Origin: Polyangium sp. 15x6
GTDB lineage: Bacteria > Myxococcota_A > Polyangia > Polyangiales > Polyangiaceae
Direction: 5' to 3'
Length of the DNA: 40,955 nucleotides
Assembly: GCF_029960785.1 (NCBI RefSeq)
Contig: NZ_JASBQE010000105.1
Location: forward strand, 1-40,955
Positions 11,990 through 38,191 of the stretch are shown one piece after another. The translations under genes and the position numbers were made by a program. The notes below the pieces were generated by a model that was not told where the DNA came from, did no database searches, and saw nothing but the letters and a program-made list of their open reading frames with translations. Numbering within the stretch: the first letter of the stretch is position 1; the number at the start of each line of letters is the position of its first letter.

Positions 11990-12771
11990 CTCGTCACGCT
12001 CCGCTCGCCGAGCGGGATGATTTCCGCGAAGACGTCGAGGCCGATCGGCAACGTGGCCACGAGGCCGAGGCCGAGCTGGAACTTGTAGCGATCGGTCCCC
12101 TGTCGATCCTCGCCGTCGACCTGCCAGAAGATCGGTCCGCCGAAGCCCCGCGCGACGACGTAGGGGCTGAGCACATCGTAAAAGGTCTTTCCCGCGACCG
12201 CGCTGATGCGGAGGTCGCCGGCGTAGTACGGCACGGCGGGCGCGTCGGAGCGCGCCTCGCGTGTCTCCGCGCCCGCGAAGGCGAGCGAGGCGCCGAGGAT
12301 CACGAAAGGCCAGCGATCGCGGCCGTCGAGCAGGCGGTAGGACGTGGCGATGGACGCGGACCAGCCGGGGCCGAAGTCGTAACGTCGCGCGCCCTCGCGC
12401 AGGCTGCCCCAGAGGATGCCGCCCGCGCCGAGCTGCAGCGTCCACTTGGCGCCGAGCCTGCGCTCGAACGTGGCGACGGCCGCGCGCCGATCGATGGAGA
12501 CGTCGTACTTCCCCGCGAAGACGAGGTTTGTCCACGCGTAACCCACCGTCGCGCCGACGCGGTAGAGCCGCGGGCGTGGCTTGACGACGGGCGCGCCCGG
12601 CTTGCTCGGGGGCAGGAGCGCGCCTTCGTCTTCGCTGCAGGAGGGGATGCCCGTCGGACCGACGGCCGGCGCGACGCCTCAGGCCCGCGCGTCGCGCGTC
12701 ACGCCGAGGATCGAGGCCAGGGTCGCGGCGGCCGCGAAGGCCACGCCGAGCACGTTTTCGATGGGTCGCAT
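11968..12771 (-). pseudogene. Outer-membrane beta-barrel-like gene interrupted by in-frame TGA
   Basis: Reading from ATG 12771 (GAGGA just upstream), the frame encodes a 30-residue signal peptide, MRPIENVLGVAFAAAATLAS followed by ILGVTRDARA, then TGA at 12681-12679. It then continues open and in the same frame for 236 codons to TAG 11968. Codons on both sides end in G or C almost throughout, so both parts look like real coding sequence. The mature part alternates hydrophobic and polar residues, is rich in aromatics and Gly (GYAWTNLVFAGKYDVSIDRR), and ends in Phe (GAGFSF), as outer-membrane barrels do. The only other starts lie at GTG 12546 or later, which would lose the signal. A nonsense mutation, a sequencing error or readthrough would each explain it. 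Confidence 0.65.
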
Positions 12772-21345: not shown

Positions 21346-21436
21346 CCGTGCCGCTCCATAAAACCTCGGCCGGCATGGCGGGAGCCTGCGGACGAGGAGC
21401 GACGCAGGAGCGAGCGTCGTTCTTCCCGCAGCGCTC

Positions 21437-24400: not shown

Positions 24401-24469
24401 CTCGGCTTCGAGCAAAGCGCGCACGGCAGAGGTGCGTCCGAGGATCGAGGCGGGGAGAAGGCTCGGCAA
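21437..24469 (-). CDS. Multi-PAS hybrid histidine kinase with receiver domain
   Basis: This is a 1010-aa soluble hybrid kinase. Residues ~5-120 look like a degenerate receiver (SILGRTSAVRALLE..., VDAGADELFVLPHDAP) without a clear phospho-acceptor pocket. Four PAS domains follow at about 135-250, 260-370, 380-490 and 500-625, three of them ending in a (V/I)T/S-D/E-x-R type linker. HisKA has His648 in GVAHEINNPLSF. HATPase has NLLANAAQAM, DNGVGI, FDPFFTTK and GMGLGLS. The C-terminal receiver has Asp888-Asp889, the acceptor Asp933 (LCDLMMPG) and Lys985 (LFKPF). No membrane segment is present, so it senses a cytoplasmic signal. It starts 8 bp after the DUF4132 gene, suggesting co-expression with the MoxR/VWA module. 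Confidence 0.93.
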   Translation of the reverse strand: MPSLLPASILGRTSAVRALLEAELRAAGFDVLPDEDPGTLGDPSLVVVLDLEGDAPQASLDACRATRARLDAVALAVATEHDDDTHLRALVDAGADELFVLPHDAPRLGPRLVAIGRRVETTRRILDDKRDIERRHEHLYEHAPIILHSIDAEGRLVSVSDGWLDALGYERAEVLGRRSVDFMTEASRELALARIPDLFRHGVARGSRYEFVRKDGSLLEVVMTVLVERDAAGKLLRTFAVSTDLSEVREVERALARANDELHTLLAAFPDNLFRVAEDGTMLEAQFGQRQRRRSVESLPALVGKNLAEILQPLRAPEILDAIKKVQGTTDVVSLEYETRGTDGDPMFREVRVAALPRGEALILSRDVTELRHSEALLRENETRLRALLDNAPVVLWAVDREGIITFAEGKGLAHLGFRPGELIGTSAFDLPTVPGSSLPQVHEPLAGRAYMGEVAIGRVWFEHVSWPLRDASGEVTGALGVSTDITERRRVELALRESERLAQGVFENAPVGIQIFGPDGTSVRMNEAQRKQLGLPSRTYGVGFFNALTDPLHVDTGMDQCFARAYAGEVVEIHGQDVNLDIIGNSWSSSRARLVFDTILFPIRDGAETRAVVAFCRDVTERRHAEARLLLTDRLTSLGTMAAGVAHEINNPLSFVLANLEFVAEALRAAPPDAETYEAATQALDEALEGAKRMRGIVRDMGTFSRADGDAAESGPIDVHAVLDKSIRMTHHALRHRTRVTRAFGDVPRIIGNEPRLGQVFLNLLANAAQAMPDRPESENEIRLVTRSIDDRVAVEVIDNGVGIPPDRLTRIFDPFFTTKPVGEGMGLGLSVCHSIVSSFGGELLVESTPGTGSTFRVILRAAEPTPSLRGGLRPAGRGDRPRVLFVDDEPYVCTAVRRMLGRDMDLVCAYGPEEALELVRAGERFDVVLCDLMMPGTSGAALYASLLELDPALERRVGFLTGGACTDEVRSFVGDVGDRLLFKPFEAESFRALVSALASGSMPPRRVG

Positions 24470-24477: not shown

Positions 24478-27400
24478 CTATCTCGCGCGTGGCGCGGCGC
24501 GCGCAAGGGCGCGGTCGATGCTGGCCCGCGCCTCACAAACGAGCGGCCTGGGGATCGCGGTAAAAGGCAGAGGAACGCCCCTCGGATCGCAAAACCCGAA
24601 CGCGCCGGAGAACGTGGCGTCGCGCGGCCAGGGGGGGCTCCCCGGATCGAACCAGGCCGTGAAGGTCGAGCTCCATGGTTGGTGGACGAACGTTCGCGTG
24701 GCGAGCCCGGATCCCGTGGAAAATCCCTCGTCCACGAGCGCGCGCCGGAGGGCGGCCGCAGAGGCGAGGCGGCGCGCGAGGGCGTGGCTCTCGGTGCGGT
24801 CGAGCTCGTCGTCGGGGACGCCGCGGAGATCTCGGAAGAGCTGGGGGAGCTCTTGCTTGACGCCGAGATCACCCGTGAGCGCGCGCCACACCGCGACGTC
24901 GGGCAAGCGGGCCGGATGGACGAGCTCGACGTCGGTCCAGCCGATCCAGCGTGCGTCGTAGTCGAGCGGGACGACGCCGAGGCCACGCGTGGGGTCCCAG
25001 GTCCAGAGGAGCGCGAGATCACGGGGAGGCCCGGGATCTCGGGGGCGTATCGCGAGGACGAGGTGCCGGAGGAGCGAGGCGTGGAGTGGATCGTCGAGGA
25101 GCCACGCGAGCTCGTCGGCCGTGAGGGGCGCGGCGCGGATCATGCGGTCTTCGAGGAGCCGTACAGCCTCGTGTCTGCGAGCGCGTTCGGCGCGGCGGCC
25201 GCGGACGAGCGCGCGGTAGCGTTCGTCTTTGCGCACGGCCGAAGGGACGCGGCGGAGCGGGGAGGATGCGCCCCCGGCGGTGACGATGATCTCGCCGCGA
25301 GGTCCGAGCGAGACGACGTGGCCGGCGATCACGGGCGAGAGCGGCAGGGCGGGATCACGCGTGGGGACGGGCGCGGGAGCGAGCGAGGTTCGTCGCGGGA
25401 CGAGGGCGGCGAGCGGGCGCGCGGGATCGTCGTCGGGGAGGGGGAGATCCCGTGGGACGAGGGGCAGGGGTGGATCGAGGTACGTCGGGACGACCGGCGG
25501 TGGTTCGGCGAGGAGGCGCGGGGAGACGCCGACGTCGCGGGCGAACGCTTCGGCGAGTTCACGCGGGGAGCAGAGGAGGACGACGTCGCGGAGGGAGGGT
25601 TCGTCCGCGGTGGGGATGCGGAGGAGGTTCGTCGCGGCGAGGCGCGTGAGTGAGGGAGAAACACCGCGCAAGGCGAGGGGCGAGGGCAAGAGGCGGCCGG
25701 CGCCCGTGCGCACGAGGGGCGTCGCGTCGGCGACGCGCGCGAAGGCGAGGTGGTGTGTTCCGGCCTCGTGTGCGTCGAGCGAGGAGAGCGCCCACGCGAG
25801 GAAGACGAACCGTGCGTCGCGTGGATCCGAGAGGCCAGGCAGGGCGGGCGCGGGCCAGCGCTCGGGGCGAAGGACGCCGCGATCGGCGAGGGAAGCGCGC
25901 GAGAGCGCGACGCCGCGGAGGAGCGCGGCGGGGTCGGGGTGCGCGAGCTGGAGGCTCGGATCGGCGGCGGCGACCGTGGTTGTCGTGACGAGGCGGGGGT
26001 CGATGTGCTGCGCGAGGACCTCGGCGAGAGAGAGCGCGTCTTCGGCGAGATCGAGGGAGGTGCGTTCGTCCTCTGCGAGGCCGACGAGGCGGAGGGCCCA
26101 GACGAAGGCGAGCGCGGGGGATGCGGCCACGGCTGCGGATGCGGCAGCCTCGGACGATGCGGCGAGCGCGGCGAGCGTCGCGGTGACGAGGGGTGCGGGC
26201 AGCCATCGCGCGAGGGAACGGACGCGGCGCGTGCGTGTGCCCGAGCGTGGGGGCGGGGTTGTCTCGGCCGGACCGAGCCGGGCGTCTGCGGCTAGATCGA
26301 GCGTCTCGGAGAGCGCGCGGCGCGTCGAGGCATCGAGATCGGCGAGCAGCGCGGCGAGCAGCGGGCGTGAGGTGGGTTTGTCGAATGCGTCCGCGAGGGC
26401 AGGGCCAAGACCGTCCGCGTGCGAGAAGAGGTTCGTCGGGGTGATCTCGGCGAGGTGCAGGAGGGCCCGGATGCAGGTGTCCTCGGCAGGTGGGTTCGTC
26501 GCACGTGCAAGTGCGCCGAGCAGGCGAACCGTGACGGCGAGCAGGAGCGAAGTGTCGTCGCTCGGGCTCGCAGGGAGGAGTGTGTCGAGCACGGCGGCGA
26601 GGCGCGCGGTGTCGAGGTCGCCCCACGTGGCACGGAGCGCGGAAGCGAGGCCGCTGCGCACGTGAGAGCCATGGTCGCCCGACGCGTGCGAGAGCGCCCA
26701 GAGCGCCTGGAGACGCGCGCGCACGAGCGAGGCTTCCCCCGCGGGCGCCCACGTGCCTGGAAGGCCGAAACAACCGAGGAGGGCCGCGTCGATACGGGAC
26801 GCGGCCGCAGCAAGATCGCCCGAGGTCTGCGCCGCGTTCGTCAGGGCCGCGATCGTCCCCGGCGGCACGTCGCTGCCGGCTTCGAGGAGACGTCGCAACA
26901 CGTCGAGGCGCAACGACAAACCCGCGTCGGGCCCTGCATGCTCGGCCGCGACGTCCACGAGCTCTCCGGGCAGGATTTTCCCGTGGCGGGGCGAGGACAC
27001 CACAGCGACGAGGAGCGCCGCGGAGACGGGCGCCCGTCGCGCGAGCCGGGCGAGGCGGCGGAGCGAGCGCGTCGCGTGCTCCTCGTCGCCGAGCGCGAGG
27101 AAGGTGCGCGCAGCTTCGAGCCACATCGAGGCCGCCGCGTCGGGGCCGATCTCCTCGAAGAAGGCTTCGAGCGCCTGGAACGCCTGCTCCGCGCGGCGAG
27201 GGCGCGCCTCCGCGAGCGCCGTGGCGCGCAGGAACACGCGGCTCGCGCGGCGCACGCGTTCGTGATGGGTAGCGTCCTCGGGGCGCTCGCCGTGCAGGCG
27301 AAGCGGGAAGGGGACTTCCTCGCGTGGCTCGAACCGCAGGAAAAGGGCGTCCTCGGCGAAGTACCCCTCGTGCTGCTCGACGACGCGGCGCGCAGGCCAG

Positions 27401-27501
27401 GTATCCGCGCGGACCTCGAGGACGCGCACGGCGGAGACGAGCGAGCGGAGGCGCACGAGGAAAACGGCCTCGTGATCGGGGGCAGGCGCAGGATCGTTCA
27501 C
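24478..27501 (-). CDS. DUF4132 family protein (MolR/YehI-like)
   Basis: This is a 1007-aa cytoplasmic protein. Residues ~80-480 are Ala/Leu-rich helical-repeat-like sequence (RAEQAFQALEAFFEEIGPDA and similar). The C-terminal ~300 residues fit DUF4132: RLLEDRMIRAAPLTADELAW, LLDDPLHASLLRHLVLAI, a DVELVHPARLPD box, then VWRALTGDLGVKQELPQLFRD, where the family has a conserved trypto­phan-rich segment ending in QPFxQLxRE. E. coli YehI/MolR belongs here; its biochemical role is unknown. The GTG start overlaps the stop of the 110-aa gene (GTGA), placing it in the VWA-SWIM operon. Assignment rests on motif memory; the helical part has no assigned function. Confidence 0.8.
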   Translation of the reverse strand: MNDPAPAPDHEAVFLVRLRSLVSAVRVLEVRADTWPARRVVEQHEGYFAEDALFLRFEPREEVPFPLRLHGERPEDATHHERVRRASRVFLRATALAEARPRRAEQAFQALEAFFEEIGPDAAASMWLEAARTFLALGDEEHATRSLRRLARLARRAPVSAALLVAVVSSPRHGKILPGELVDVAAEHAGPDAGLSLRLDVLRRLLEAGSDVPPGTIAALTNAAQTSGDLAAAASRIDAALLGCFGLPGTWAPAGEASLVRARLQALWALSHASGDHGSHVRSGLASALRATWGDLDTARLAAVLDTLLPASPSDDTSLLLAVTVRLLGALARATNPPAEDTCIRALLHLAEITPTNLFSHADGLGPALADAFDKPTSRPLLAALLADLDASTRRALSETLDLAADARLGPAETTPPPRSGTRTRRVRSLARWLPAPLVTATLAALAASSEAAASAAVAASPALAFVWALRLVGLAEDERTSLDLAEDALSLAEVLAQHIDPRLVTTTTVAAADPSLQLAHPDPAALLRGVALSRASLADRGVLRPERWPAPALPGLSDPRDARFVFLAWALSSLDAHEAGTHHLAFARVADATPLVRTGAGRLLPSPLALRGVSPSLTRLAATNLLRIPTADEPSLRDVVLLCSPRELAEAFARDVGVSPRLLAEPPPVVPTYLDPPLPLVPRDLPLPDDDPARPLAALVPRRTSLAPAPVPTRDPALPLSPVIAGHVVSLGPRGEIIVTAGGASSPLRRVPSAVRKDERYRALVRGRRAERARRHEAVRLLEDRMIRAAPLTADELAWLLDDPLHASLLRHLVLAIRPRDPGPPRDLALLWTWDPTRGLGVVPLDYDARWIGWTDVELVHPARLPDVAVWRALTGDLGVKQELPQLFRDLRGVPDDELDRTESHALARRLASAAALRRALVDEGFSTGSGLATRTFVHQPWSSTFTAWFDPGSPPWPRDATFSGAFGFCDPRGVPLPFTAIPRPLVCEARASIDRALARAAPRAR

Positions 27502-27830
27502 GGCGCCTCCGGGTCGTCGTCTTCGGCCCCGAACGCGGAGAGCAGCGCACCGCGCGCGAGCCGGGCGGAGAGCGCCTCGATGCGGTCGTAGGACGCGAGC
27601 AGCGCCTCGGCGAGCGTCACGCTCGGCTGCGGACCGCGCCCCGCTTGCGCTTCGAGCGCCGCGGCCACGGCTTCGAGGCGCGTCGCGAGGTCGAACAGGC
27701 CGATCGAGCGCGCGTCCGCCGAGAGCCGCCGGAACGAGATCGCGCGGTGCTCGGTGCGTTCGAGCGCGCCGGCCGCGGCGAGCTCCTCGATCGCCGCGCG
27801 CGCTTGCCTCGCGAGGCGATCGGGGATCAT
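27498..27830 (-). CDS. Unrecognised 110-aa helical protein between SWIM and DUF4132
   Basis: This is a 110-aa, probably all-helical, soluble protein (MIPDRLARQARAAIEELAA, then ISFRRLSADARSIGLFDLAT, then a Leu/Ala-rich helix and an acidic tail DDDPEAP). I do not recognise it. The start ATG 27830 overlaps the SWIM gene stop (ATGA), and its own stop overlaps the GTG of DUF4132 (GTGA). That tight coupling on both sides supports a real gene and a stoichiometric role with its neighbours, perhaps as an adaptor. Open frame upstream to 29099 is shadow of the SWIM gene. Confidence 0.75.
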   Translation of the reverse strand: MIPDRLARQARAAIEELAAAGALERTEHRAISFRRLSADARSIGLFDLATRLEAVAAALEAQAGRGPQPSVTLAEALLASYDRIEALSARLARGALLSAFGAEDDDPEAP

Positions 27831-29239
27831 CGCGTCACCTCGAGCGCAGGATCCACGACGTCGAGCGTGAGATCGATCGTCGAGCCGTCCGCGAGCATCG
27901 CCGTGATCGGCTCGATCACGAGCGAGCCTCCTTCGCGGGCGAGGCGGACGCAGAGAAAGCGCGGCGGCCTCGCGGCGCGGCTCAGCACTTCGAGGTTGTC
28001 GAACAGGAGCGCGCGCTCCTCCCGGAACGAGAGCGAGGTGCGGAGCTCCACGCCTGCGCCGATGCGCATGCGTACCGAGAGCTGCTGCGTCGCGTGATCG
28101 AAGTCGCTCGGGGACAACCCCTGCACCGGCAGGAGCACGATCGGCGACGAGCGCGGGGGGCGGCCGAGCGCGTCGAAGTCGAGGCTCCGGCCGAGCCGCG
28201 ACGCGTCCTCGGGGCCCGCGAGGACGTGGAGCGCGAGGCGGTCGTCGCCCCAGGGGAGCGCCGGCCGCAGGGCCACGCTCGTCGCGCGGCTGCCCGAGAG
28301 GCGCCCGTGCGAGGGCGCGATCCGCGCGCCGGAGAGCGTGAACCGACCCCGCGCGAAGTCCCGCATCGTGAGGCCACTCCGCGCGAACGCGGGCCCGGCC
28401 GCGAGCCCCTCCGCCCACGTCCGCGGATCCGCGGGCCGCGCGGGTTTTCCCTTCGTGAGCAGCGTCCGCGCGAGGACGCGATCCTCGCCGAGCACGGCCA
28501 CGTACGCCGTGACGCCCGCGACGCCTCCCGCTGCGACCCATGCTTCGAGCCCGAGCCCCTGCACCTCGATCGGCGGGACCTCGACGTACGCGCGTTGCGA
28601 CGCGCCCGCGATGTCCTCGAGCGGCAGCGCGCCCGTGTTCGCGCGGAGCGCGCGCCCGAGGTTTCGCGTGACGGCGAGCTCTCGGAGCGCGTCCGCCTCG
28701 GCCGCGCCCGCGTCCGGGCCGCCTTGGGCCGGCAAGAGCGCCGCGAGCCGATCGAGGGATCGCGCGAGCCTGCCGAGGCCCGCGTCGCGTGGTCCACGCG
28801 CTCGCGGACGCATCGCAGCCGCGCGCGCGGCGAGCTCGCGCACCCGATCCCCCGAGACACGCGCCGCCCGCCCTAGGCCGAGCGTCACGATCTCCGCCAC
28901 GAGCGTGTCCACCTCGGCCAGGATCGGCGCGAACCGCGCGGCGTCCTCCGCGGGCAGCGGCTCCGCCTTCGAGGGCTCGGGGAACACGAGGGCCGGCGGC
29001 GGTTCCGTGGGGCCCGCGCGTCCGCCGAGATCCCGCGCCCGTTCGTCGCCGCGCGCGACCAGCCGATGCAGACACGTCGGCGCGTCCCCCATCGGGCAAT
29101 CACACCCGACGCGGCCGTCGCGCCACGTGACCGTCGCGTCCCCTACCCGCGCGCGGCCTTCGCCCATCGGCACCGCCACGAGCTCGGTCCGCGCCGCCGC
29201 GCGACGCATCCCGGCCGGCGCATCCCGGCGGCTCGTCAC
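27827..29239 (-). CDS. SWIM zinc-finger protein (YehQ-like)
   Basis: This is a 470-aa protein. The N-terminal SWIM finger is Cys46-x-Cys48-x7-Cys56-x-His58 (CDCPMGDAPTCLH), a zinc-binding module linked to DNA or protein contact. The rest, to about residue 460, is a mix of helices and beta strands with no motif I recognise. The start GTG 29239 overlaps the VWA stop (GTGA) and gives VTSRRDAPAGMRR; longer frames are shadows of the VWA gene. SWIM proteins next to VWA and MoxR genes are a known neighbourhood (E. coli yehP-yehQ, from memory). This one may recruit the complex to a target. The 110-aa gene follows with a 4-bp overlap. Confidence 0.85.
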   Translation of the reverse strand: MTSRRDAPAGMRRAAARTELVAVPMGEGRARVGDATVTWRDGRVGCDCPMGDAPTCLHRLVARGDERARDLGGRAGPTEPPPALVFPEPSKAEPLPAEDAARFAPILAEVDTLVAEIVTLGLGRAARVSGDRVRELAARAAAMRPRARGPRDAGLGRLARSLDRLAALLPAQGGPDAGAAEADALRELAVTRNLGRALRANTGALPLEDIAGASQRAYVEVPPIEVQGLGLEAWVAAGGVAGVTAYVAVLGEDRVLARTLLTKGKPARPADPRTWAEGLAAGPAFARSGLTMRDFARGRFTLSGARIAPSHGRLSGSRATSVALRPALPWGDDRLALHVLAGPEDASRLGRSLDFDALGRPPRSSPIVLLPVQGLSPSDFDHATQQLSVRMRIGAGVELRTSLSFREERALLFDNLEVLSRAARPPRFLCVRLAREGGSLVIEPITAMLADGSTIDLTLDVVDPALEVTR

Positions 29240-30393
29240 GCCTCGCCCCCGCGCACGTGACGCCCGACCCAGGCCGCGAGCTCCCGCGGCGTCATGGCGG
29301 CGATCGGCATGCCGAGCGTCGCGAGCGCTCCGGTGACGCGGCGATCGAAGCCGCCCGCGCCCTTGTCGCCGAGGGCCACGAGCCCGAGCACCGTCACCCC
29401 GGCGTCGAGCAGATCCTTCACCCGCGTGACGAGCGCGCCGAGCGCGCCTCCCTCGCGGAAATCCGAGATCAAGACGACGAGCGTGCGCCGCGGCTCCGCG
29501 ACCAGGCTCGCGGCGTACCCCACGGCCCGCGAGAGCAACGTCCCGCCCCCGAGCTGCAGCGAGAACAAGACTTCCACCGGATCTCCGGCGATCTCCGTCA
29601 TGTCCACCACGTGCGTGTCGAACACGACGAGGCGAAGATCGAGCGACGGGACCGACGCGAAGATCGCCGCGAGGATCGCCGCCTGCACGACGCTGTCCAC
29701 CATCGATCCGCTCTGATCGAGCAGGACGATGAGCCTGTGGCGCGTCTGCCTGGCGAGCCGCCGCCGGAACACGAGCCGCTCGACGCCGAGCACGCCGCGC
29801 GCGCGGTCGTAGTGCCGGAGGTTTTCCCGTACGGTGCGCCGCGCGTCGAGGTTCGCGAGCACGCGCAGGTTCGTCCGGCCGCGTGGCCCGGACGGACCCG
29901 TGAGCGAAGGAGCGAGCTCCTTGGCGAGCGCGCGCGAAAGGTCGCGCACGGCCTCCTCGATGAGCCGCCTGGCCGCGGGGAGCGAGGCTTCGGGGATCTG
30001 CCCGCGCAGCCGCACGAGGAGCGCGAGGATCGCGGGTGAAGGCGTCACCGAGGCGAGGGCCGCCGGATCTTCGAGCAGCGCCGCGAGCCCGTGCCGCGCC
30101 GCCGCGTCCTCCTCCATCACCACGCGCGCCTCGGGCGGGAAGAGCTCTTCCACGCTCGCGAGCCACGTCGAAGGCCGGAGCACGCTCGGCCCGAGGCCGG
30201 CGCCGCGCGCGCCCTCGTGTGACGGGCCGCGCCGGAACGCGCGGTCGTAGAGGAACGAGAGATCCTCGTCGATCCGCAGGAGCACCTCGTCCCCTTCGAG
30301 GGGGCTGCCGAGCGAGCTGTCGGCGAAGCGCCCGAAGAGGAGCCGCAGCCGCCGCGCCGCCTCGCGCTTCTTGTCGTCCGCGCCCGCCGTCAT
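29236..30393 (-). CDS. VWA-domain protein (YehP-like)
   Basis: This is a 385-aa protein, close to the size of E. coli YehP. The N-terminal ~200 residues are helical. The VWA domain begins at about residue 220 with an intact MIDAS motif, Asp226-x-Ser228-x-Ser230 (LLDQSGSMVDS), and continues through VVFDTHVVDMT and LVVLISDFREGG. The metal site binds Mg2+ and partner acidic residues, and VWA proteins are the usual partners of MoxR AAA+ ATPases, here encoded at 37016-38191. The start ATG 30393 overlaps the TGA of the upstream membrane glycosyltransferase (ATGA), and the stop overlaps the SWIM GTG. Confidence 0.92.
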   Translation of the reverse strand: MTAGADDKKREAARRLRLLFGRFADSSLGSPLEGDEVLLRIDEDLSFLYDRAFRRGPSHEGARGAGLGPSVLRPSTWLASVEELFPPEARVVMEEDAAARHGLAALLEDPAALASVTPSPAILALLVRLRGQIPEASLPAARRLIEEAVRDLSRALAKELAPSLTGPSGPRGRTNLRVLANLDARRTVRENLRHYDRARGVLGVERLVFRRRLARQTRHRLIVLLDQSGSMVDSVVQAAILAAIFASVPSLDLRLVVFDTHVVDMTEIAGDPVEVLFSLQLGGGTLLSRAVGYAASLVAEPRRTLVVLISDFREGGALGALVTRVKDLLDAGVTVLGLVALGDKGAGGFDRRVTGALATLGMPIAAMTPRELAAWVGRHVRGGEA

Positions 30394-32444
30394 CGCGCCT
30401 CTCCGCTGCACGCGACGAGCCGCGCCGTGGGCGCTTCCATCAGCACCTCGCACCGCGCGAGCGCGTCGTGCACCGGCGCGAGGATGAACGCGTCCCGCTC
30501 GATGACGAGCGTCGGTCCTTCGGCGATCGCGGCGAGGAGGTTGTCCCTGGCTGCTTCGGCCGATCGCTCGTCCATCCGATGCACCTGCACGAGTGGCAGG
30601 ATACGGCGTCCCGCGTCTTCCAGGACGAACTCCCCCGAGACCTCGGTCCCGGGCCAGGCAGCGGGCGCGTTCGTGGCGCGCTGGAGGTAATACGCGAGCA
30701 GGGTCGCGTCGTAATGCGCCACCGTGACGATGCGCTTCTCCGAGCGGCTCGCGGCGAGCGCGGCGAAGCGCGGCATGAACGCGTCCACGTCGGGCAAGTA
30801 GGTGAGGTGCGGGCGAGGCGCGTCGAGGACCATCAGCATCGACAGCGCAGCGCCGCCGAGCGCCGACCAGACCCACGCCGGGACATGTCGGTGCGGCGCG
30901 ACCGCGAGCGCGAACACGAGCGCCGGCGCCACGGCTGCGAAGTAATAGGTCTGCACGCGCGCCACCTTCGCGGCGAGCGTGATGCCGATCGCGGTCACGA
31001 GCGCCGCGCCCACGGCCAGCACGGGCCCCGCGCATCGCGGCGCCCCGAGCCCGAGCATCGCGGCGGCGCCCGCGAGAAGCACGACCCCCGGGCCCACGCA
31101 CTTCATCGTCTCGCCGAGCAGCCCGAGCAGCATCGGAATCGGCGCGTGGCTCCCCCACGCGAGATCCGGAAATCGCTCCGCGACCTCACGCGCGCCGTGA
31201 TCCCGCACGGCCGTCACCCCGAGCAAGACGAACGCCGGCGCCCCCAGCGCCGCCCCCACGCCGATCGGAAGCGCCACGTTCCGCAGCGGTGTGCGCGCCG
31301 CGACGAGCCCGAGAAGCACGCCCGCGATCACGAGCGGCGCGAGGTAGTACGTCCACGCGAGCAGCGCCGTCGACGCGGCGAGGCCGATCCGCGCCGCGCG
31401 TGAGGGCGCGTTCGCGAGCCGCGCCGCGAACGCGCACGTGACCACCACGAGCAGCCCGAACAGCGGGATTTCGCTCACCTCGCGGGAGCGCGCCACGAGC
31501 TCCGGGCTCACGGCCACCACGACCGCCGCGATCGCCCCGAGCGGACCCGCGCGTCCTCGCACGAGCCGCGCGCCCCACACGATCGCCGGCGCCAAGAGCG
31601 CCCCCGCGATCGCCGCCGGCGCGCGCATCACCGCCTCGGAACCCCCGAACGTTCCGGCCGCGTGCAGCACGACGAACCACAGCGGTGGGTGCCGATCCTC
31701 GAGCCCCTTGCCCGTCAGGATCTCGCCGAGCGGCAGCGTCCCCGTGAAGAGCCGCTGCACGTCCTGGTCGTGCACGAACGGCAGATCGAGGTGCAACATC
31801 CGCAGCACGAGCCCGAGCCCGAAGAGCGCGGCTGCAACGATCGCATCCCCTCTCCGGAGCGAGCCGAGGAGCCCCATCGCGACCGCGAGCAGCGCCGGCA
31901 CCACGATCGCGCGCGTCCCGACGAGCCGCGCGAGCACACGCGCCACGAGCGGCGGCTCCGGCTCGGCCGCGAGCGGGATCAACGGGACGGGATCGAGCCC
32001 CGTGTCGTTCCGGTCGATCGCGTCGCGGAGCGCCTGCGTCACCGCTTCCAGATCCTCGATGGGTGCCTGCGATCGCGGCGTCTCGTAGGCGACACCAAAA
32101 CGCTTCGTCTCGCGCACGCCGGGCCATCGCCCCCGATCCACGACGTGCAATTCGATCCGACCCGCGGGCCCGTCCGGGCCGGCCTCGCGCCGCGCCGTGA
32201 AGATCACGTCCTGCTCCTCGCCCCGCCGCGGTGGAGACAGGTGATAGCCACGCGCGACGACCGCTCCCGGAGCGAGCGGGAGGACGAGATCCTCCCACGT
32301 CGCCTTCCTCGGCGCTTTCGTTTCAGGCCAAAGCAAGAGCGAGGCCGCGAGGAGCGACGTCACGGCGAGGAGCGCGCGGATCCAGGGGCTCACCGCGATC
32401 GCCCTCGCCCTCCGGAGGGCACCGCGCCATTCTCGCTCTGCCAT
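30390..32444 (-). CDS. GT-C / family-39-like membrane glycosyltransferase
   Basis: This is a 684-aa polytopic membrane protein. One N-terminal membrane segment (ALLAVTSLLAASLLLW) is followed by a ~150-aa soluble insert and then about ten hydrophobic segments. RMLHLDLPFVHDQDVQRLF supplies the acidic pair expected in the first periplasmic loop of GT-C enzymes, and EDRHPPLWFVVLH matches the DRHPPL-type motif of GT39/ArnT-like transferases. A C-terminal ~150-aa soluble domain follows. Such enzymes transfer a sugar from a polyprenyl-phosphate donor to protein or lipid. Its stop overlaps the VWA ATG, which is unexpected for this family in a MoxR/VWA operon. It is divergent from the phosphoesterase gene. 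Confidence 0.85.
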   Translation of the reverse strand: MAEREWRGALRRARAIAVSPWIRALLAVTSLLAASLLLWPETKAPRKATWEDLVLPLAPGAVVARGYHLSPPRRGEEQDVIFTARREAGPDGPAGRIELHVVDRGRWPGVRETKRFGVAYETPRSQAPIEDLEAVTQALRDAIDRNDTGLDPVPLIPLAAEPEPPLVARVLARLVGTRAIVVPALLAVAMGLLGSLRRGDAIVAAALFGLGLVLRMLHLDLPFVHDQDVQRLFTGTLPLGEILTGKGLEDRHPPLWFVVLHAAGTFGGSEAVMRAPAAIAGALLAPAIVWGARLVRGRAGPLGAIAAVVVAVSPELVARSREVSEIPLFGLLVVVTCAFAARLANAPSRAARIGLAASTALLAWTYYLAPLVIAGVLLGLVAARTPLRNVALPIGVGAALGAPAFVLLGVTAVRDHGAREVAERFPDLAWGSHAPIPMLLGLLGETMKCVGPGVVLLAGAAAMLGLGAPRCAGPVLAVGAALVTAIGITLAAKVARVQTYYFAAVAPALVFALAVAPHRHVPAWVWSALGGAALSMLMVLDAPRPHLTYLPDVDAFMPRFAALAASRSEKRIVTVAHYDATLLAYYLQRATNAPAAWPGTEVSGEFVLEDAGRRILPLVQVHRMDERSAEAARDNLLAAIAEGPTLVIERDAFILAPVHDALARCEVLMEAPTARLVACSGEAR

Positions 32445-32581
32445 CCGCCGGCTCGGACGCTAGACGACGGGTTCACGCGGGTAAAGTGGACAGCACGGGA
32501 AGGCCTGGAGCCCTCGGGATCCTCGCGCGAGCGAGCGGCGAATCCCGGGCAAAAGCCATAGCTTGTGTGCCCCCGCGCCTT

Positions 32582-32587
32582 ATACTG
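32582..32587 (+). promoter_or_regulatory. Candidate -10 box giving a leaderless phosphoesterase mRNA
   Basis: TATACT lies 8 nt before the GTG start at 32595, and no Shine-Dalgarno sequence precedes that start (CTGATCCCTC). A transcript beginning about 7 nt after the box would be leaderless or nearly so. A convincing -35 is not visible. Confidence 0.35.
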
Positions 32588-32594
32588 ATCCCTC

Positions 32595-33596
32595 GTGCCG
32601 AGCACCCCTCCTCCTGAAGGCTTGCTCCTCGAGCAGTTCCGCGGTCGTCTCCCCGGCGACGAGACCGTCACATCGCCCACGACGATCGAACGCGCGAAGA
32701 CGCGCATCCAGGTCCGGCGCTTCGCCGGCCCCGCGCATTACACCGAGCACCTCTCCCACCTGCGTATCGCGCACCTGACCGACCTCCACGTCGGCCGCGT
32801 GACCCCGTGGGCGGTGCAGCTCGCGGCGGTCGAGCTGACCAACGCGGAGAAGCCCGACCTCGTCCTGCTCACGGGCGATTTCGTGTGCCACAGCCAGCAA
32901 TACCTCGACCGCCTCGAGGCCCTCGTGCGGCGCTTCGAGGCGCCCGTGATGGCGGTGCTCGGCAACCACGATTACTGGTCCGGCGCGGACGAGGTCCGTC
33001 ACGCCCTGCGCCGCGGCGGCGTCGAGATCCTCGACAATCGCCACACCATCATCGGCCTGCGCCACCAGATGCTCCAGGTCGTCGGCCTGGACGACGCGTA
33101 CACCGGCCACGCCCGCAGGGACGAAGCCTTGAAGGGTCTGCGCCGTGATCTGCCGACGATCGCCATGTCCCACATCGCCGAGGAGGCCGACGGGCTCTGG
33201 GCCCAGGGCGACATCCCGCTCGTCTTGTCCGGCCACACCCACGCCGGCCAGGTCACGCTCGCCCGCCTGCACGAGCTCGCGATCGGCAAGCTCGCGGGGC
33301 ATCGCTACGTGCACGGCCTCTACGGCAGCCGCAGGAGCGGCGGCGCGCATCCCGGCGCGGTGTACGTCGGCGCGGGCATCGGCGCGTCCGTCATGCCGAT
33401 TCGCCTCGGCGAACGAGGTCAGCGCGAGGTCGCGATCTTCGAGCTCGGCTACGAGCCCGGCGCGATCGAAGAGCACCACGACGAGCAGGACCCGCTGCCC
33501 GGCCGCCCGCCCACGCCCGAGATCATGGCCAAGCGCGCCGCCGCCGTGGTCGCCAAGCGCGAGAAGCGCGAGCGCAAGAAGCCCCGAACGAGCTAG
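32595..33596 (+). CDS. Calcineurin-like metallophosphoesterase
   Basis: This is a 333-aa enzyme with all metal-site motifs of the family: TDLHVG (Asp63, His65), TGDFV (Asp95), LGNHDYW (Asn124, His125), SHI (His193) and GHTHAGQ (His214, His216). It would hydrolyse phosphomonoesters or phosphodiesters using two metals; YkuE/YaeI-like members act on lipid-linked substrates such as UDP-diacylglucosamine, but no membrane anchor is obvious here. The C-terminus is Lys/Arg/Glu-rich (REKRERKKPR). The start GTG 32595 has no ribosome site, consistent with a leaderless message. It is the only plus-strand gene inside the MoxR/VWA region. Confidence 0.92.
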   Translation: MPSTPPPEGLLLEQFRGRLPGDETVTSPTTIERAKTRIQVRRFAGPAHYTEHLSHLRIAHLTDLHVGRVTPWAVQLAAVELTNAEKPDLVLLTGDFVCHSQQYLDRLEALVRRFEAPVMAVLGNHDYWSGADEVRHALRRGGVEILDNRHTIIGLRHQMLQVVGLDDAYTGHARRDEALKGLRRDLPTIAMSHIAEEADGLWAQGDIPLVLSGHTHAGQVTLARLHELAIGKLAGHRYVHGLYGSRRSGGAHPGAVYVGAGIGASVMPIRLGERGQREVAIFELGYEPGAIEEHHDEQDPLPGRPPTPEIMAKRAAAVVAKREKRERKKPRTS

Positions 33597-33978
33597 CAGA
33601 GCTCCGCACGCCCGGAGACGCCCTTGGCGCCGCGCCAAGAGGAGATCGGCGCGTCCGGAGGTGGCTTTGGCGCTGCGCCAAGAGAAGGTCGGCGCTTCCG
33701 GAGGTGGCTTTGGCGCTGCGCCAAGAGAAGGTCGGCGCGTCCGGAGGTGGCTTTGGCGCTGCGACAAGAGGAGGTCGGCGCGTCCGGAGATGGCTTTGGC
33801 GCCGCGCCAAGAGGAGGTCGGCGCGTCCGGAGATGGCTTTGGCGCTGTGCCAAGAGAAGGTCGGCGCGTCCGGAGATGGCTTTGGCGCCGCGCCAAGACG
33901 AGGTCGGCGCGGCCGGAGGTAGCTTTGGCGCTGCCCCAAGAGAAGGTCGGGATGTCCGGACCTCTCTTCGGCGCAGTG
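33592..33978. repeat. Array of 43-bp tandem repeats with embedded palindromes
   Basis: Eight 43-bp direct repeats run from 33635 to 33978, and a more diverged partial copy begins near 33592. They fill the space between the convergent phosphoesterase and peroxiredoxin genes. Most copies contain TTGGCGC-N-GCGCCAA across the unit junction, a 7-bp stem with a one-base centre, and a conserved GGCGCGTCCGGAG block. A few copies carry single changes in one palindrome arm. Because 43 is not a multiple of three, all frames stay open and produce long repetitive shadow ORFs that I do not call genes. There are no variable spacers, so it is not a CRISPR array. Function is unknown. Confidence 0.9.
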
Positions 33979-33990
33979 GATGTGAGGTCG

Positions 33991-34470
33991 CTAGCTGACT
34001 CGGGGCCGCTGCGCCTCGAACTTCCCGTGCACGAAGCGCAGGACGTCGTCGCGGTGCTTCTCCGCGCTGAGCTCGTGGTGGAAGATCGCCTCGATGCGCA
34101 TCTCGGGGCTCACCACGAACGTGTACCGCTGCGCCACGCCCACGACCGGCCAGAGGACGTCGTAGGCCCGCGCGATCCGCTTGTCCGCGTCCGCGATGAG
34201 GGAGAACGGCAGGTGGAGATCGCCGGCGAACTTGCACTGCGTGTCGCTGTCGTCCGTGCTCACCCCGACGAGGTTCGCGCCGGCCAGCAAGAGCTCGTTG
34301 TAGTTGTCCCGGAACAGGCGCGTCTCGCCCGTGCAGACCGGCGTGAACGCCTTCGGATAGAAGTACACGACGGTGCAAAGCCCCTCTTGCTTGGAGAGGA
34401 CGAACCGGTCGCCGGCGCTCGTCTGCGCGTCGATCTCCGGCGCGTGATCCCCGACCTTGAGCGAGCTCAT
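33991..34470 (-). CDS. Peroxiredoxin (AhpC/TSA, Bcp-like)
   Basis: This 159-aa thiol peroxidase has the thioredoxin-like start MSSLKVGDHAPEID, the peroxidatic Cys46 in FYPKAFTPVCTGE, the conserved Arg in the SFRD-like LFRDNY, and RYTFVVSPEMRIEAIF near the end. It reduces hydrogen peroxide and organic peroxides in the cytoplasm. The resolving Cys that classical Bcp carries five residues after the active Cys is absent (Arg here); Cys32 or Cys79 could serve, or it is a 1-Cys type. It lies 50 bp downstream of the DUF5682 gene on the same strand and so is probably read with the MoxR block. Confidence 0.92.
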   Translation of the reverse strand: MSSLKVGDHAPEIDAQTSAGDRFVLSKQEGLCTVVYFYPKAFTPVCTGETRLFRDNYNELLLAGANLVGVSTDDSDTQCKFAGDLHLPFSLIADADKRIARAYDVLWPVVGVAQRYTFVVSPEMRIEAIFHHELSAEKHRDDVLRFVHGKFEAQRPRVS

Positions 34471-34520
34471 CGAAAACAGGGGTAGCAAAGCGAGCGCGGC
34501 GCGTCGAGAGGCGCAGAAAG

Positions 34521-37019
34521 TCAGCGATTCGCGTCGGAAGACGGGCCCGCCCACGCGGCCTCGGCTTCGAGCCATCGAAGCTCCCAGGCCGAGAGACGCG
34601 CGACCTCCTCGGGATGCAAGGGCGATACGAGCAGCGCCTCGGAGGCGCCGAGGCCGATCCGTTCCGCGGCGCGTGAAGAAATCTCTTCCAGCTCGCGAGG
34701 GCCGAGCCGACCGAGGGCGCGGCGCAAGGACGGGAGCGAGGCGAGGAAGCCGTCGAAGCTGCCCGAGGTGACGTGCGCGACGAGCGCTTCGAGCAGCGAC
34801 GGCTCGTCGAGCAGCGCGCGCGGCGAGAGCGCGAGCAGGCCTTCGAGGTACGCGCCCTTCGCCTCGGGACGCCCCCGCGCCGCCTCGAAGTGCGCACCGA
34901 GCTCCGAGCCTCGTCCCTCGCCGAGGCTCACGAGCAGCCCGTCGAGGGCACCCAGCACGAGCGGCGAGGTCGCCCGCGCGATCTCCCGCGCCGCCCGCGC
35001 CTTCGCCAGCAAGAGCTCCCGCGAAGGGCCCATTCCGTCGGCCGCGAGCGTCGCTCCGCCGAGATCCGCGAGCAGCACCGGAACGTCCGCGGCGCGCGCC
35101 CCCGAGGTCTGCGCGAGCCGCGGGAGCCCGCGCGTCCCCTCCTCGTACGCCGCGAGCCCGAGCGCGTCGAGCCACGCCGCCTTCGGAAGGCCGAGCCGCG
35201 CGCGGAGCGCCCGCACCCGCCGGAGCTTTCGCGCCGCTCCGAGGAGCGAGCGCGGGTCCTCGTCCGCGCGGATCGCCGCCTCGAGGGCCGGCGCGAGCCG
35301 CAGGCAGACGTCCTCGAGCCCCATCCGCACGCCTCGCCCCACGCACGCCGCGATCTCCCCCGCGCGGCCTTCGCCTTCCCGCGCCGCGCGCACGAGCAGC
35401 CGCGCCGACGCCTCCTCCACGCTCGCCCCCTCCGCCGCGAGCTCCAGGAGCCGCGCGTCCACCTCCGGCGCGTACGCCACGGTCCAGCGCTCCGTCGCCG
35501 CCCCGAACTCCGTCGCCGCTTGGGGCTTCGGGTCGCCTTCGGCGCCCTTCGCCCCAAACCCCTCCACGTCGCCCACCCCGACCTGCGTCGCGAACCCGAG
35601 CCCGAGCCACGCCGTGCGATGCAAGAACGACGAGCACCGCCGCGCCTTCTTCGACGCCGCGAGCGAGAGCTCGATCGCGCGCGGCGGCCCTCCGGAAGGC
35701 GCGAGCCCGAGCGCCTCGGCCGTCTCCCGGAAATCTCGCAGGATCGGGCTCGGGCCCGCCGTCGGCCCGAGCTTGCCCACCCGGCTGCCGCGCAGCGCCT
35801 CGCCGAGCGCCGCGACGACCCGCCGCCCCGAGACGCGCAGCTCGCCTTTCACGAAGCAGCTCGTCGCGGCCTCGATCACCTCGGCCCGCCCGAGCTTCGG
35901 CCGCCCCCGGATCGACGCGAGCTCCCGCGCGAACGCGAGCGCCGCGATCGCGTCCGCCGGCCCGAGCGCGTCGCCCTCGGCCCGCGCACGCCGGATCGTC
36001 TCGAGCAGCACCCGCTCCGCCGCGCGCGCGAACGGATCCGCCTCGGCCCGCGCCTCCCACACGTGCTGGTAAAACGCCGGCCCGCTCATCCCCGGCGCAT
36101 ACCCGAGCAGCGCGTCGAGCCTCGGGAACGTGTACGGCACGAGCCGCACCTCCGCTTCCGCGTCGTCCTTCGGCGCGCGCTGGAGCGCGGGCAGCATCTC
36201 CCGCGCGCCGCCGAGCGCGACCACGTGCAGCGCCCCGGCGACGACGAGCGCGCGTTTCCTCTTCTGCGCTGCGGCCTCCGCGATCTTCGCCGCCATGAAC
36301 CGCTCGCGCGAGAACGTCCCGTCCGCTTCGAGCTCGTCCTGCCCGAACGTCCGCCGCGTCGCGAGCGCGTACGCGCCCACCGCGAGCGCCCAGCCCTCGG
36401 GGCTCTCGTCCCAGCCTCCTTGCTCGAACAGCGCCTCCCACAGCTCGTCGAAATCTCGCGCGCCCGCCCGCGCGCAGAGCGCCGCCGTGAACCGGCTCCG
36501 CCCGAAGAGCCCGCCCGCGTCCTGCCCGAGCCGCTCGCCGAGCGCGTGCTCCGCCGAGGGGAGGTCGTCCTCGCCGAGATCCGCCTCGTCCTCGGGCAGC
36601 GGCGAAAACCGGTCGATGAAGCGCACCTCGGCGCCGCTCGCCTTCGCGTACCGCAGCGCCACGAGCTCGGGCGAGTAGTCGCAGAACGGGTAATACGCCC
36701 GGGATCGTGGCGCCTCCGCGGCGCGGCTCCCGTCCCGCCGCGCCACGAAGCGCGGGCGCTTGTCTTCGGTGATCGCGCAGATCGCGAACGGCGTGCGGCT
36801 CTCCGGATCGAGGAGCGCTTCGAGGTGCTCCTCGAACCGCGCGGGCAGCTCGACGAGGATCACGTCGGGCGCGAAGGCCGGCAGGAACGCTTCGAGCTTC
36901 GCCGCGCACGTCGGGCTCTGGTGCCGCACGGGGAAGAAGGCGAGCGCGCTCGACAGGCCGAGCCGCTTCGCGACCTCGGCGCGCGTCTCCTCCGGCGCTC
37001 CGAGGTCTCCGAGGTTCAT
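34521..37019 (-). CDS. DUF5682 family protein (YehM-like)
   Basis: This is an 832-aa cytoplasmic protein. The N-terminus carries the family mark, FFPVRHQSPTCAAKLEAFL then APDVILVELPARFEEHLEAL, and later KRALVVAGALHVVAL. The C-terminal two-thirds is Ala/Leu/Arg-rich and helical. The biochemical role of DUF5682 is unknown; in the genomes I recall it sits between MoxR and VWA genes (E. coli yehM). ATG 37019 overlaps the MoxR stop (ATGA); an open frame to 37646 is MoxR shadow. It is the second gene of block 1 of the split system, while its VWA partner lies 4.1 kb downstream on the same strand. Confidence 0.85.
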   Translation of the reverse strand: MNLGDLGAPEETRAEVAKRLGLSSALAFFPVRHQSPTCAAKLEAFLPAFAPDVILVELPARFEEHLEALLDPESRTPFAICAITEDKRPRFVARRDGSRAAEAPRSRAYYPFCDYSPELVALRYAKASGAEVRFIDRFSPLPEDEADLGEDDLPSAEHALGERLGQDAGGLFGRSRFTAALCARAGARDFDELWEALFEQGGWDESPEGWALAVGAYALATRRTFGQDELEADGTFSRERFMAAKIAEAAAQKRKRALVVAGALHVVALGGAREMLPALQRAPKDDAEAEVRLVPYTFPRLDALLGYAPGMSGPAFYQHVWEARAEADPFARAAERVLLETIRRARAEGDALGPADAIAALAFARELASIRGRPKLGRAEVIEAATSCFVKGELRVSGRRVVAALGEALRGSRVGKLGPTAGPSPILRDFRETAEALGLAPSGGPPRAIELSLAASKKARRCSSFLHRTAWLGLGFATQVGVGDVEGFGAKGAEGDPKPQAATEFGAATERWTVAYAPEVDARLLELAAEGASVEEASARLLVRAAREGEGRAGEIAACVGRGVRMGLEDVCLRLAPALEAAIRADEDPRSLLGAARKLRRVRALRARLGLPKAAWLDALGLAAYEEGTRGLPRLAQTSGARAADVPVLLADLGGATLAADGMGPSRELLLAKARAAREIARATSPLVLGALDGLLVSLGEGRGSELGAHFEAARGRPEAKGAYLEGLLALSPRALLDEPSLLEALVAHVTSGSFDGFLASLPSLRRALGRLGPRELEEISSRAAERIGLGASEALLVSPLHPEEVARLSAWELRWLEAEAAWAGPSSDANR

Positions 37020-38191
37020 CGCTCGCGGCCGATCTTGCGCCACGCCTCGAGCAGCGCGCCCCACGGCCCGCCGTGCCGCGCGGCCCGATCCCGCACCACC
37101 GTCTCCACGTACCGTTCGAGCTTCGACGTGTCCTCGGCCGCGTCGAGGGTCGCCGCGCCTGCGAGGTGCGAGGCCACCTCCTCGGCGCCGAGCCTGCCCG
37201 TGCCGTAGTAATGCGCGTGCAGCGCGGCGGCGTGCAGCGTCGCGATCGCCTCGGCCGTCGAGAGCGGCGCCTCCGGTCGGTCGAGGTGCACGCCCTCGCG
37301 GCTCCGGCCCGAGCGCAGCTCCTGGAACGTCGTCACCACGAGCTCCACCGCGTCCCGCGGCACGGGCACGCTCGCCCCCGCCGCCGCGAGCTGCTTTTGC
37401 ACCTCGCGCTCGACGAGCGCCATCTCCACGAACGGATCCCGGATCGGCCGCACCGACTCGAAGTTGAAGCGCCGCCGGAGCGCCGCGCTCATCTCGTTCA
37501 CCCCGCGATCCCGCGCGTTCGCCGTGGCGATCAAGTTGAAACCCTCCCGCGCGAACAGGATCCCGTCCTCGCCTTCGAGCTCCGGCACCCGGAGCACCTT
37601 GTCGGACAGGATGCCCACGAGGCTGTCCTGCACCTCCACGGGGCAACGCGTCAGCTCCTCGAAGCGCGCGATCCGGCCCTCGCGCATCGCGGCGAACAGC
37701 GGCGACGGCACGAGCGCCTCTCGCACCGGGCCCTTTGCCAGGAGCAACGCGTAGTTCCAGGTGTACTTGATCTGATCCTCGGTCGTGGCCGCGCTGCCTT
37801 GCACCGTGAGCAGGCTCGTCCCGGTCGCGGCCGCGGCGAGGAGCTCGGACAGCATCGACTTCGCGGTCCCCGGCTCGCCGACGAGCAGGAGCGCGCGGGG
37901 CGAGGCCAGCGTCACGATCGCGCGCTCGACCAGCGCGTCGTCGCCGAAGAACTTCTGGGTCACGGCGAGCTCGCCTTCGCCGCCAGGACGGGGCAGCTTC
38001 GCCTCGCCCGAGCCCAGGATGAACGTGCGGATCATCCGGGGCGACAGCCGGAAGCCGCGCGGCTTCGGGTGCGTGTCGGCGGCGGCGAGGGCGTCGAGCT
38101 CCTCGCGGAAGAGCACCTCTGCGGCGGGACGGAGGACGGATTCGGGCACGCGGATCGCTTCTCGCCGCCCGGCGCGGTGCGGCCTTGGCAA
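37016..38191 (-). CDS. MoxR-type AAA+ ATPase (YehL-like)
   Basis: This is a 391-aa AAA+ ATPase. Walker A is GEPGTAKS (105-112). The Walker B segment reads GRIARFEEL (172-180), with Glu in place of the usual Asp, apparently normal in this subgroup. Sensor 1 is LIATANARDRG, and the arginine finger region ALRRRFNFE follows. MoxR ATPases act as chaperones that remodel or load metals into partner proteins through VWA proteins. TTG 38191 gives 391 aa; an in-frame GTG at 38149 would give 377 aa with a better purine-rich stretch (GAGAAG) upstream and a size closer to E. coli YehL, so the start is unsettled. It is translationally coupled to DUF5682. Confidence 0.9.
   Translation of the reverse strand: MPRPHRAGRREAIRVPESVLRPAAEVLFREELDALAAADTHPKPRGFRLSPRMIRTFILGSGEAKLPRPGGEGELAVTQKFFGDDALVERAIVTLASPRALLLVGEPGTAKSMLSELLAAAATGTSLLTVQGSAATTEDQIKYTWNYALLLAKGPVREALVPSPLFAAMREGRIARFEELTRCPVEVQDSLVGILSDKVLRVPELEGEDGILFAREGFNLIATANARDRGVNEMSAALRRRFNFESVRPIRDPFVEMALVEREVQKQLAAAGASVPVPRDAVELVVTTFQELRSGRSREGVHLDRPEAPLSTAEAIATLHAAALHAHYYGTGRLGAEEVASHLAGAATLDAAEDTSKLERYVETVVRDRAARHGGPWGALLEAWRKIGRER

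Follow-up and report, generated by a model that had tools for sequence, protein, structure and literature searches.

Gene content of the locus

Positions 1 to 40,955 of contig NZ_JASBQE010000105.1 from Polyangium sp. 15x6 (this whole stretch of 40,955 nucleotides is referred to as the window) contain homologues of the Escherichia coli genes yehL, yehM, yehP, yehQ, and yehI. A first-pass annotation, made from the sequence alone, had described a set of five genes encoding a MoxR ATPase, a DUF5682 protein, a VWA protein, a SWIM zinc-finger protein, and a DUF4132 protein, broken into two blocks and corresponding to yehL-yehM-yehP-yehQ plus yehI. The division into two blocks is borne out, as is the E. 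coli counterpart: in the MG1655 genome, yehI (DUF4132), yehK, yehL (MoxR), yehM (DUF5682), yehP (VWA), and yehQ (SWIM) lie in a row. All five window genes are real and belong together, and a sixth, encoding a protein of 110 amino acids, had been overlooked. A Pfam search returned significant matches for the MoxR, DUF5682, VWA, and DUF4132 proteins at the places first given for them; the SWIM protein has no match to the Pfam SWIM family.

The first block, on the reverse strand, consists of two genes overlapping by 4 bp. The upstream gene (37016..38149) encodes a MoxR AAA+ ATPase of the YehL type (PF07728 AAA_5, E = 2e-36), which contains the motifs GEPGTAKS and RRRF and shares 45-57% identity with 16 family members. 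The MoxR identity had been recognised correctly, with a start codon at 38191. This start is probably 14 codons too long, the true one being the GTG at 38149, which is kept in 6/6 genomes of the genus, and 2/6 have a start codon at the position of 38191. The downstream gene (34521..37019) encodes the DUF5682 protein (PF18934, E = 4e-92), composed of a probable N-terminal TraB/TIKI-like domain (residues ~1-322) and a C-terminal helical region.

The second block, also on the reverse strand, contains five genes with a 4-bp overlap at each junction. The original claim that all junctions overlap in this way holds only with the unlisted 110-residue open reading frame (ORF); among the genes as listed, 325 nt separate SWIM from DUF4132. 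The first gene of the block (30390..32444), upstream of the VWA gene, encodes a 684-residue protein with no match in Pfam that is, on reading its hydrophobic sequence, probably a polytopic membrane protein. The CoxE-like VWA protein (29236..30393; PF05762 CoxE, E = 2e-47) has an intact metal ion-dependent adhesion site (DQSGS at residue 226, with the T and D also present), as first proposed. It is followed by the SWIM-type zinc-finger protein (27827..29239), the 110-residue helical protein (27498..27830), and the DUF4132 protein (24478..27501; PF13569, E = 1e-13, at residues 749-923), in which Pfam detects no WGR domain. The blocks lie 4.1 kb apart with three other genes in the gap, so MoxR, DUF5682, VWA, and SWIM are not contiguous in the window. 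NCBIfam gave nothing above its curated cut-off for any of nine window proteins (one read out of frame).

The SWIM protein contains one CxC-x7-CxH finger at residues 46-58. This motif and the family alignment uphold the earlier assignment, although the Pfam SWIM family is not matched. In the family alignment (A6), 14 of the 19 rows (window row included) match PF04434 at E <=1; the window protein aligns with the family members, and its gene is placed after the VWA gene as in the YehL-type system. YehQ, by contrast, has two Pfam SWIM stretches. Among 90 SWIM ORFs, two fingers were counted in 46, one in 40, and none in 4. A strict SWIM profile built from 13 rows matched 13 ORFs versus 24 for a looser one, and divergent members may escape the strict version.

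The 110-residue ORF is present in 6/6 genus genomes with amino acid identities of 0.80-0.92. It was found by a small-protein profile at E = 3.7e-5 before entering that profile, which was seeded with four free-standing Bacillota ORFs near SWIM and iterated, taking in the SWIM helical domain on the way, so that its E-values lean on a chain of inclusion. Of 88 loci with a SWIM match, 85 have a helical domain within the SWIM ORF that this profile also matches, and 16, the window included, have a free helical copy downstream of SWIM (one of these, L066, is doubtful). To judge from these matches, the 110-residue protein is a free copy of the helical domain otherwise found inside SWIM proteins.

The YehL-type system across bacteria

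The first-pass annotation had expected the genes to co-occur in other genomes, and they do. In the best-scoring 80 of at least 584 MoxR relatives, a set whose counts lean towards close MoxR kin, DUF5682 is found near MoxR in 80/80 loci, VWA in 73, SWIM in 71, and DUF4132 in 64; part of the absences come from loci cut by contig ends. MoxR and DUF5682 are no more than 400 bp apart in 77/80, and 63/80 have all four core genes in the usual order MoxR-DUF5682-VWA-SWIM. A MoxR tree (quick method, midpoint root) includes nine phylum-level groups: Bacillota, Pseudomonadota, Actinomycetota, Verrucomicrobiota, Planctomycetota, Myxococcota, Spirochaetota, Bacteroidota, and Melainabacteria. This supports the idea of an AAA+/VWA assembly of the YehL type whose parts co-occur across phyla. 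Three loci (L071, L072, and L073) have the distinct order VWA-MoxR-DUF5682 and occupy a long separate branch of the tree.

In the window's own phylum, DUF5682 was matched in 42 of 188 genomes, 37 of them above cut-off, and within the family the system is patchy, occurring in 16/41 genomes. Forty loci hand-picked from the phylum matches contain MoxR in 36 cases, VWA in 37, SWIM in 15, and DUF4132 in 13. This set overlaps slightly with the previous one, identical MoxR rows being shared by L127 and L058 and by L139 and L063. DUF5682 and VWA form a single ORF in 15 of the 40 phylum loci and in 2 loci of the 80-locus set; one of these two is L127, whose MoxR is identical to that of L058 in the phylum set. 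This single-ORF arrangement points, indirectly, to direct physical coupling of DUF5682 and VWA.

Compared with the E. coli locus (yehF-H-I-K-L-M-P-Q), the window has MoxR, DUF5682, VWA, and SWIM in the same order with DUF4132 nearby, and the invariant residues of YehM are the same. The window differs in having MoxR-DUF5682 and VWA-SWIM set apart, in having DUF4132 placed after SWIM and not before MoxR, in adding the free helical protein, and in having no detectable WGR domain. A locus in Deinococcus taeanensis, SWIM-DUF5691-AAA-hypothetical-DUF5682-VWA, has SWIM, an AAA ATPase, DUF5682, and VWA in common with the window; it differs in having DUF5691, in having SWIM upstream, and in having no DUF4132 within the stretch shown. 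Splits, insertions, or permutations of the same genes occur elsewhere (L042, L049, L069, L090, L108-L111, and L129). Since other lineages also break the gene order, contiguity is treated here as variable and not as defining, and the window set is a variant of the YehL-type system, not a typical member.

Clustering of the neighbouring genes in the 80 loci, with a crude ORF picker, revealed no clear extra partner gene. Only four clusters reach at least 4 loci, and by eye these read as response regulators (10), a MATE-like transporter (7), the small helical ORF (4), and ABC ATPases (4).

According to PMC3893208, which also names a YehL subfamily, E. coli K-12 has only two MoxR ATPases, YehL being one of them. 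The first-pass statement that the role of the system is undescribed agrees with the literature searched, a collection lacking most subscription papers: neither DUF5682 nor the yeh set has a function described there, no paper names DUF5682, and the 6 papers that contain two or more of the five yeh gene names have them in neither title nor abstract. Among the matches listed, none linked MoxR with TIKI or TraB. The system and its genes are already known as orphans, under the YehL subfamily; new would be the split variant and the TraB/TIKI assignment for the whole family.

The window copy in its genus

The genome of Polyangium sp. 15x6 contains three DUF5682 copies above cut-off, and each of five other genomes of the genus has three matches. 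The MoxR proteins of the three copies occupy three places in the tree. The copy on contig C111, whose set consists of WGR-DUF4132, MoxR, DUF5682, VWA, and SWIM, falls in the clade containing E. coli. A second, on contig C99 (SWIM, a HEAT-repeat protein, MoxR, DUF5682, and VWA), falls with other members of the phylum. The window MoxR groups with its genus only, on an isolated branch of length 1.22; by its place in the tree, the window copy is a genus-restricted lineage. A genome of the same family (G203), whose MoxR belongs to another clade, has an unsplit MoxR-DUF5682-VWA-SWIM set with a match to the helical domain after SWIM.

The two-block order is kept in 5/6 genus genomes; in the remaining one, G190, the blocks are on separate contigs and the order is not closable. 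With the order kept in these genomes, the split is a lasting feature of this copy. The overlap between the 684-residue gene and VWA is not universal, since G191 has an extra 2.8 kb between them; in G190, the 684-residue gene is not seen near VWA. The 684-residue protein has an amino acid identity of 0.72-0.91 across the genus. Median ratios of nonsynonymous to synonymous substitution rates (dN/dS) within the genus are 0.10 for MoxR, 0.11 for VWA, 0.29 for DUF5682, 0.32 for SWIM, 0.32 for the 110-residue gene, 0.34 for DUF4132, and 0.38 for the 684-residue membrane gene. On these ratios, the parts of the split genus copy are under purifying selection.

A probable TraB/TIKI-like domain in DUF5682

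The N-terminal ~320 residues of DUF5682 carry a probable TraB/TIKI-like domain, an assignment that draws on a predicted structure, profile comparison, and conserved residues. An AlphaFold2 model of the full protein, from 53 sequences, has a mean predicted local distance difference test score (pLDDT) of 86.7 and a predicted template modelling score (pTM) of 0.83. As helical-repeat proteins dominated the Foldseek output for the full model, the N-terminal 322 residues were modelled alone from 52 sequences (pLDDT 87.1, pTM 0.87). Alignment A3 contains 52 of 73 usable DUF5682 rows, and L141 was left out of alignment A4. For the C-terminal half of the full model, the structural rows are mostly helical-repeat or all-helical proteins at modest Z; this half is predicted to be helical, and no more is claimed for it.

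In a VIA-align comparison with the N-domain model, rows 1 to 12 are all TIKI superfamily proteins (Z 9.8 to 6.3), and row 13, a phosphatase, has Z 5.3. The top three are subunits of Tetrahymena complex IV that carry the name TraB family protein (Z 9.8, 9.7, and 9.5; root-mean-square deviation 4.7-5.2 over 200-209 residues). Further rows are ChaN (7.9), HopBA1 (7.7), the Pasteurella toxin C-terminal region (7.3 and 7.2), EreC (7.0 and 6.5), and three Ere-like Bacillus structures (7.0, 6.5, and 6.3). EreC, 2qgm, and 2rad we take, from their structure titles, to belong to the TIKI superfamily; PMT, HopBA1, Bcr135, and ChaN are given as members in PMC6254334. As best Z values of 7-8 are common without true kinship, we rely on the three highest-scoring rows and on the fact that the first twelve all come from one superfamily.

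Profile comparison points in the same direction. Aligned by hhalign as single pairs and not in a database search, the DUF5682 N-domain and TraB (12 proteins from relatives) score 96.9%, the MoxR control scores 0.1%, and TraB against ChaN scores 90.2%. One of 13 candidates was dropped from the TraB set; for the ChaN set, 17 of 30 fetched loci were viewed and one was dropped. Besides DUF5682 itself, the window N-domain matches only TraB (0.029), ChaN (0.1), and DUF5694 (0.18) in Pfam at E <=10. Over 52 members, ChaN is matched by 15, TraB by 6, and DUF5694 by 6, and most other families shown by one.

The order of motifs also resembles that of the TraB/TIKI superfamily (TraB/PrgY, ChaN, erythromycin esterase, and RRSP), in which two GxxH motifs are found. 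The residues H33, E57, E118, D136, R238, E239, M242, G262, and H265 are invariant in 53/53 sequences, giving the order H, E, E, D, RE..M, G..H, and the second GxxH is present in 53/53. The same residues are found in all 21 rows of alignment A1, including E. coli YehM, where their equivalents are H11, E35, E83, D101, R175, E176, M179, G199, and H202. Active TIKI members are described in PMC6254334 as having two histidines, two glutamates, and a basic residue; H33, E57, H265, and R238 of this set are invariant in DUF5682, the first glutamate being V, I, or L. The spacings H-E 24 and R-H 27 resemble those of 28 and 29 in the TIKI endopeptidase RRSP, calculated from numbers in the same source. What sets DUF5682 apart from TraB/TIKI proteins is the long helical half joined to its N-domain and the link to a MoxR/VWA pair. 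The PF18934 match starts at residue 42 of the window protein, which is profile position 1, so the first conserved histidine motif lies outside it.

Proposed function

Directly upstream of the system in E. coli is the unit molR, which we equate with the yehF-yehI region. It is listed as LexA-regulated in PMC3978071, PMC11039860, and PMC4576408. A LexA-like sequence, CTGGATAAAATTACAG, ends 9 bp before yehF, which encodes a WGR protein. PMC8533742 reports that in Deinococcus an operon encoding a DUF4132 protein is upregulated when DdrO is depleted. Because LexA-regulated molR is directly upstream in E. coli, DNA damage or general stress is the likeliest setting for the system. A molybdate role, suggested by the old name molR, was set aside; moeA and moeB are reported as not differentially expressed in the Deinococcus experiment (PMC8533742).

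Our preferred reading, to which we commit ourselves only halfway, is that the locus encodes a genus-specific split YehL-type machine in which MoxR/VWA is coupled to a TIKI-type hydrolase, DUF5682, with adaptors, and which works in a DNA-damage or general-stress setting. The MoxR AAA+ ring and its VWA partner would capture and remodel a target. In known MoxR/VWA pairs, as outlined in PMC7159879, the VWA protein binds a peptide and remodelling is ATP-driven. DUF5682 would couple to the VWA protein, perhaps via its helical half, and its N-domain would act on the captured target as a TraB/TIKI-type hydrolase. Peptidase activity is the likeliest, RRSP and Tiki being peptidases according to PMC6254334. 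DUF5682 may instead be an esterase or a mere ligand binder. The SWIM zinc-finger, small helical, and DUF4132 proteins would be recruiting or adaptor subunits, a likely role for SWIM and DUF4132. Complex formation, hydrolysis, a peptide substrate, and the stress setting are what we infer from gene content, conservation, the fusion of DUF5682 to VWA elsewhere, the predicted fold, and the invariant active-site-like residues.

More tentatively, YehLMPQ-type systems may constitute an unrecognised class of ATP-driven hydrolase machine, found in nine groups and LexA-controlled in E. coli, in which MoxR/VWA feeds or gates a DUF5682 peptidase; the window lineage would then be one with the halves apart and a free helical adaptor. 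If this is true, MoxR/VWA pairs power a TIKI-type hydrolase and are not only chaperones. The TraB/TIKI domain would give the YehL-type system its first testable activity, and the named catalytic-site residues in a laboratory strain make a large orphan family testable by point mutation.

Several results weigh against a stress-linked hydrolase. VIA-align places no more than three rows above Z 8 and carries the warning that models without a clear match typically reach 7-8 at best. Foldseek with the N-domain gave no match at E <=0.001 (best 0.082), and PDB sequence searches with DUF5682 profiles retrieved no TIKI protein. None of the Pfam matches to TIKI families reaches the cut-off, and a few unrelated families score better in one or two members (NESP55 5e-6, PI3_PI4_kinase 3e-5). 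The hhalign pairing of the N-domain with ChaN (16 proteins) scores 20.7%. In the first GxxH motif, the histidine is present in 53/53 but the glycine in only 10/53, with proline in the other 43, including the window (PVRH), and the glutamate two positions before the first histidine is replaced by V, I, or L. As to the setting, the LexA-like pattern is degenerate, with 18 matches versus 6.7 expected in the stretch searched; three stricter LexA patterns found 0 matches. The LexA and stress links concern relatives, not the window organism, and would extend to it by analogy only; the window DUF4132 protein is also without the WGR domain found with the C111 copy.

The first-pass annotation had noted that MoxR-VWA pairs usually act as chaperones; a chaperone alone may be too narrow given the probable TraB/TIKI hydrolase domain. 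One alternative explanation makes the system a MoxR/VWA metallo-chaperone whose task, as with NorQ/NorD, is cofactor insertion or removal or the remodelling of an enzyme, with the TIKI-like domain only binding a ligand such as haem or metal in the manner of ChaN. MoxR/VWA pairs of known function act in this way, as discussed in PMC9976466 and PMC7159879, and ChaN is a structural relative at Z 7.9. The 80 loci surveyed with the crude ORF picker, however, contain no recurrent dedicated metalloenzyme partner, and all polar residues of the TraB set, not merely two histidines, are invariant in 53/53. We regard a metallo-chaperone as unlikely, though it is the alternative to be taken most seriously. 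The window set might otherwise be a decaying or neofunctionalised copy, no longer a YehL machine, with the other two copies in the genome doing the job. The isolated long MoxR branch, the split of the set, the missing WGR domain, and a weak DUF4132 score (52 bits, where YehI has 162 and the C111 copy 181) would fit this, as would the single SWIM finger, a feature shared with the other one-finger ORFs counted above. Such a copy is improbable: each core ORF is uninterrupted in 6 genus genomes, where its median dN/dS falls within 0.10-0.34, and all active-site-like residues are kept.

A conflict module, for instance against phage, had also been suggested, and the MoxR-vWA-VMAP ternary systems described in PMC7159879 likewise combine MoxR and VWA with further components. 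A defence role would also suit the patchiness at family level and the plasmid copy that adjoins type I restriction genes. Yet the window proteins scanned (part of the window ORFs) contain no VMAP-type or effector Pfam family, the window MoxR scores 20.7 bits against bpMoxR, below the Pfam cut-off of 27, and PADLOC matched 0/6 proteins. SWIM, DUF5682, DUF4132, and Yeh are absent from the main text of PMC7159879. The distribution of the genes also speaks against a defence role: yehLM is near-universal in E. coli, occurring in 5285/5426 genomes (5164 with at least 80% cover) with 5292/5294 places chromosomal, and DUF5682 relatives are rare on phages and plasmids, with 1 among 50,697 phage records and 18 and 31 among 72,556 plasmid records, of which some are chromosome-sized. 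The three copies in each of 6/6 genus genomes and the dN/dS of 0.10-0.11 for MoxR and VWA also argue against it. A phage-conflict role is not supported, and we consider a conflict system of any kind quite improbable.

A mobile island was set aside, E. coli copies being chromosomal and phage and plasmid records rare. One rare mobile copy, L250, is a complete DUF4132-AAA-DUF5682-VWA-SWIM set on plasmid pl1 of Iodobacter fluviatilis (typed mobilizable), adjoining type I restriction genes and insertion sequence elements. The sole record with a DUF5682-like stretch in the phage collection, MT835988.1 (positions 11208-12770), is a 14-kb unannotated faecal sequence that is possibly a bacterial contig.

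Neighbouring genes

Two non-core genes lie in the gap between the blocks beside the 684-residue gene. An AhpC/TSA peroxiredoxin (33991..34470, reverse strand; PF00578, E = 5e-31) adjoins DUF5682 in 6/6 genus genomes, and a calcineurin-like metallophosphoesterase (32595..33596; PF00149, E = 8e-15) is encoded on the opposite, forward strand.

Eight base pairs downstream of DUF4132 is a further non-core gene, encoding a PAS-rich hybrid histidine kinase (21437..24469, reverse strand) with PAS, HisKA, HATPase_c, and receiver domains. Its co-transcription with DUF4132 is possible. A kinase matching it is present in the fetched stretch of 4/5 other genus genomes, 2.5 kb away in G189; the fetched stretch of G191 ended before this position. 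The hybrid kinase is the first of two PAS-type histidine kinases in tandem at 19375-24469. A promoter scan found 0 sites, and 5 terminator-like sites were counted against 3.6 expected.

Finally, a 43-bp tandem repeat of 7.6 copies (33624-33950) lies between the peroxiredoxin and phosphoesterase genes, each copy containing the near-palindrome TTGGCGC-N-GCGCCAA. Allowing up to 2 mismatches, one further match was found elsewhere in the same genome and none in G188, G190, or G192; G189 has two single matches, and G191 has a related array between the same two genes.

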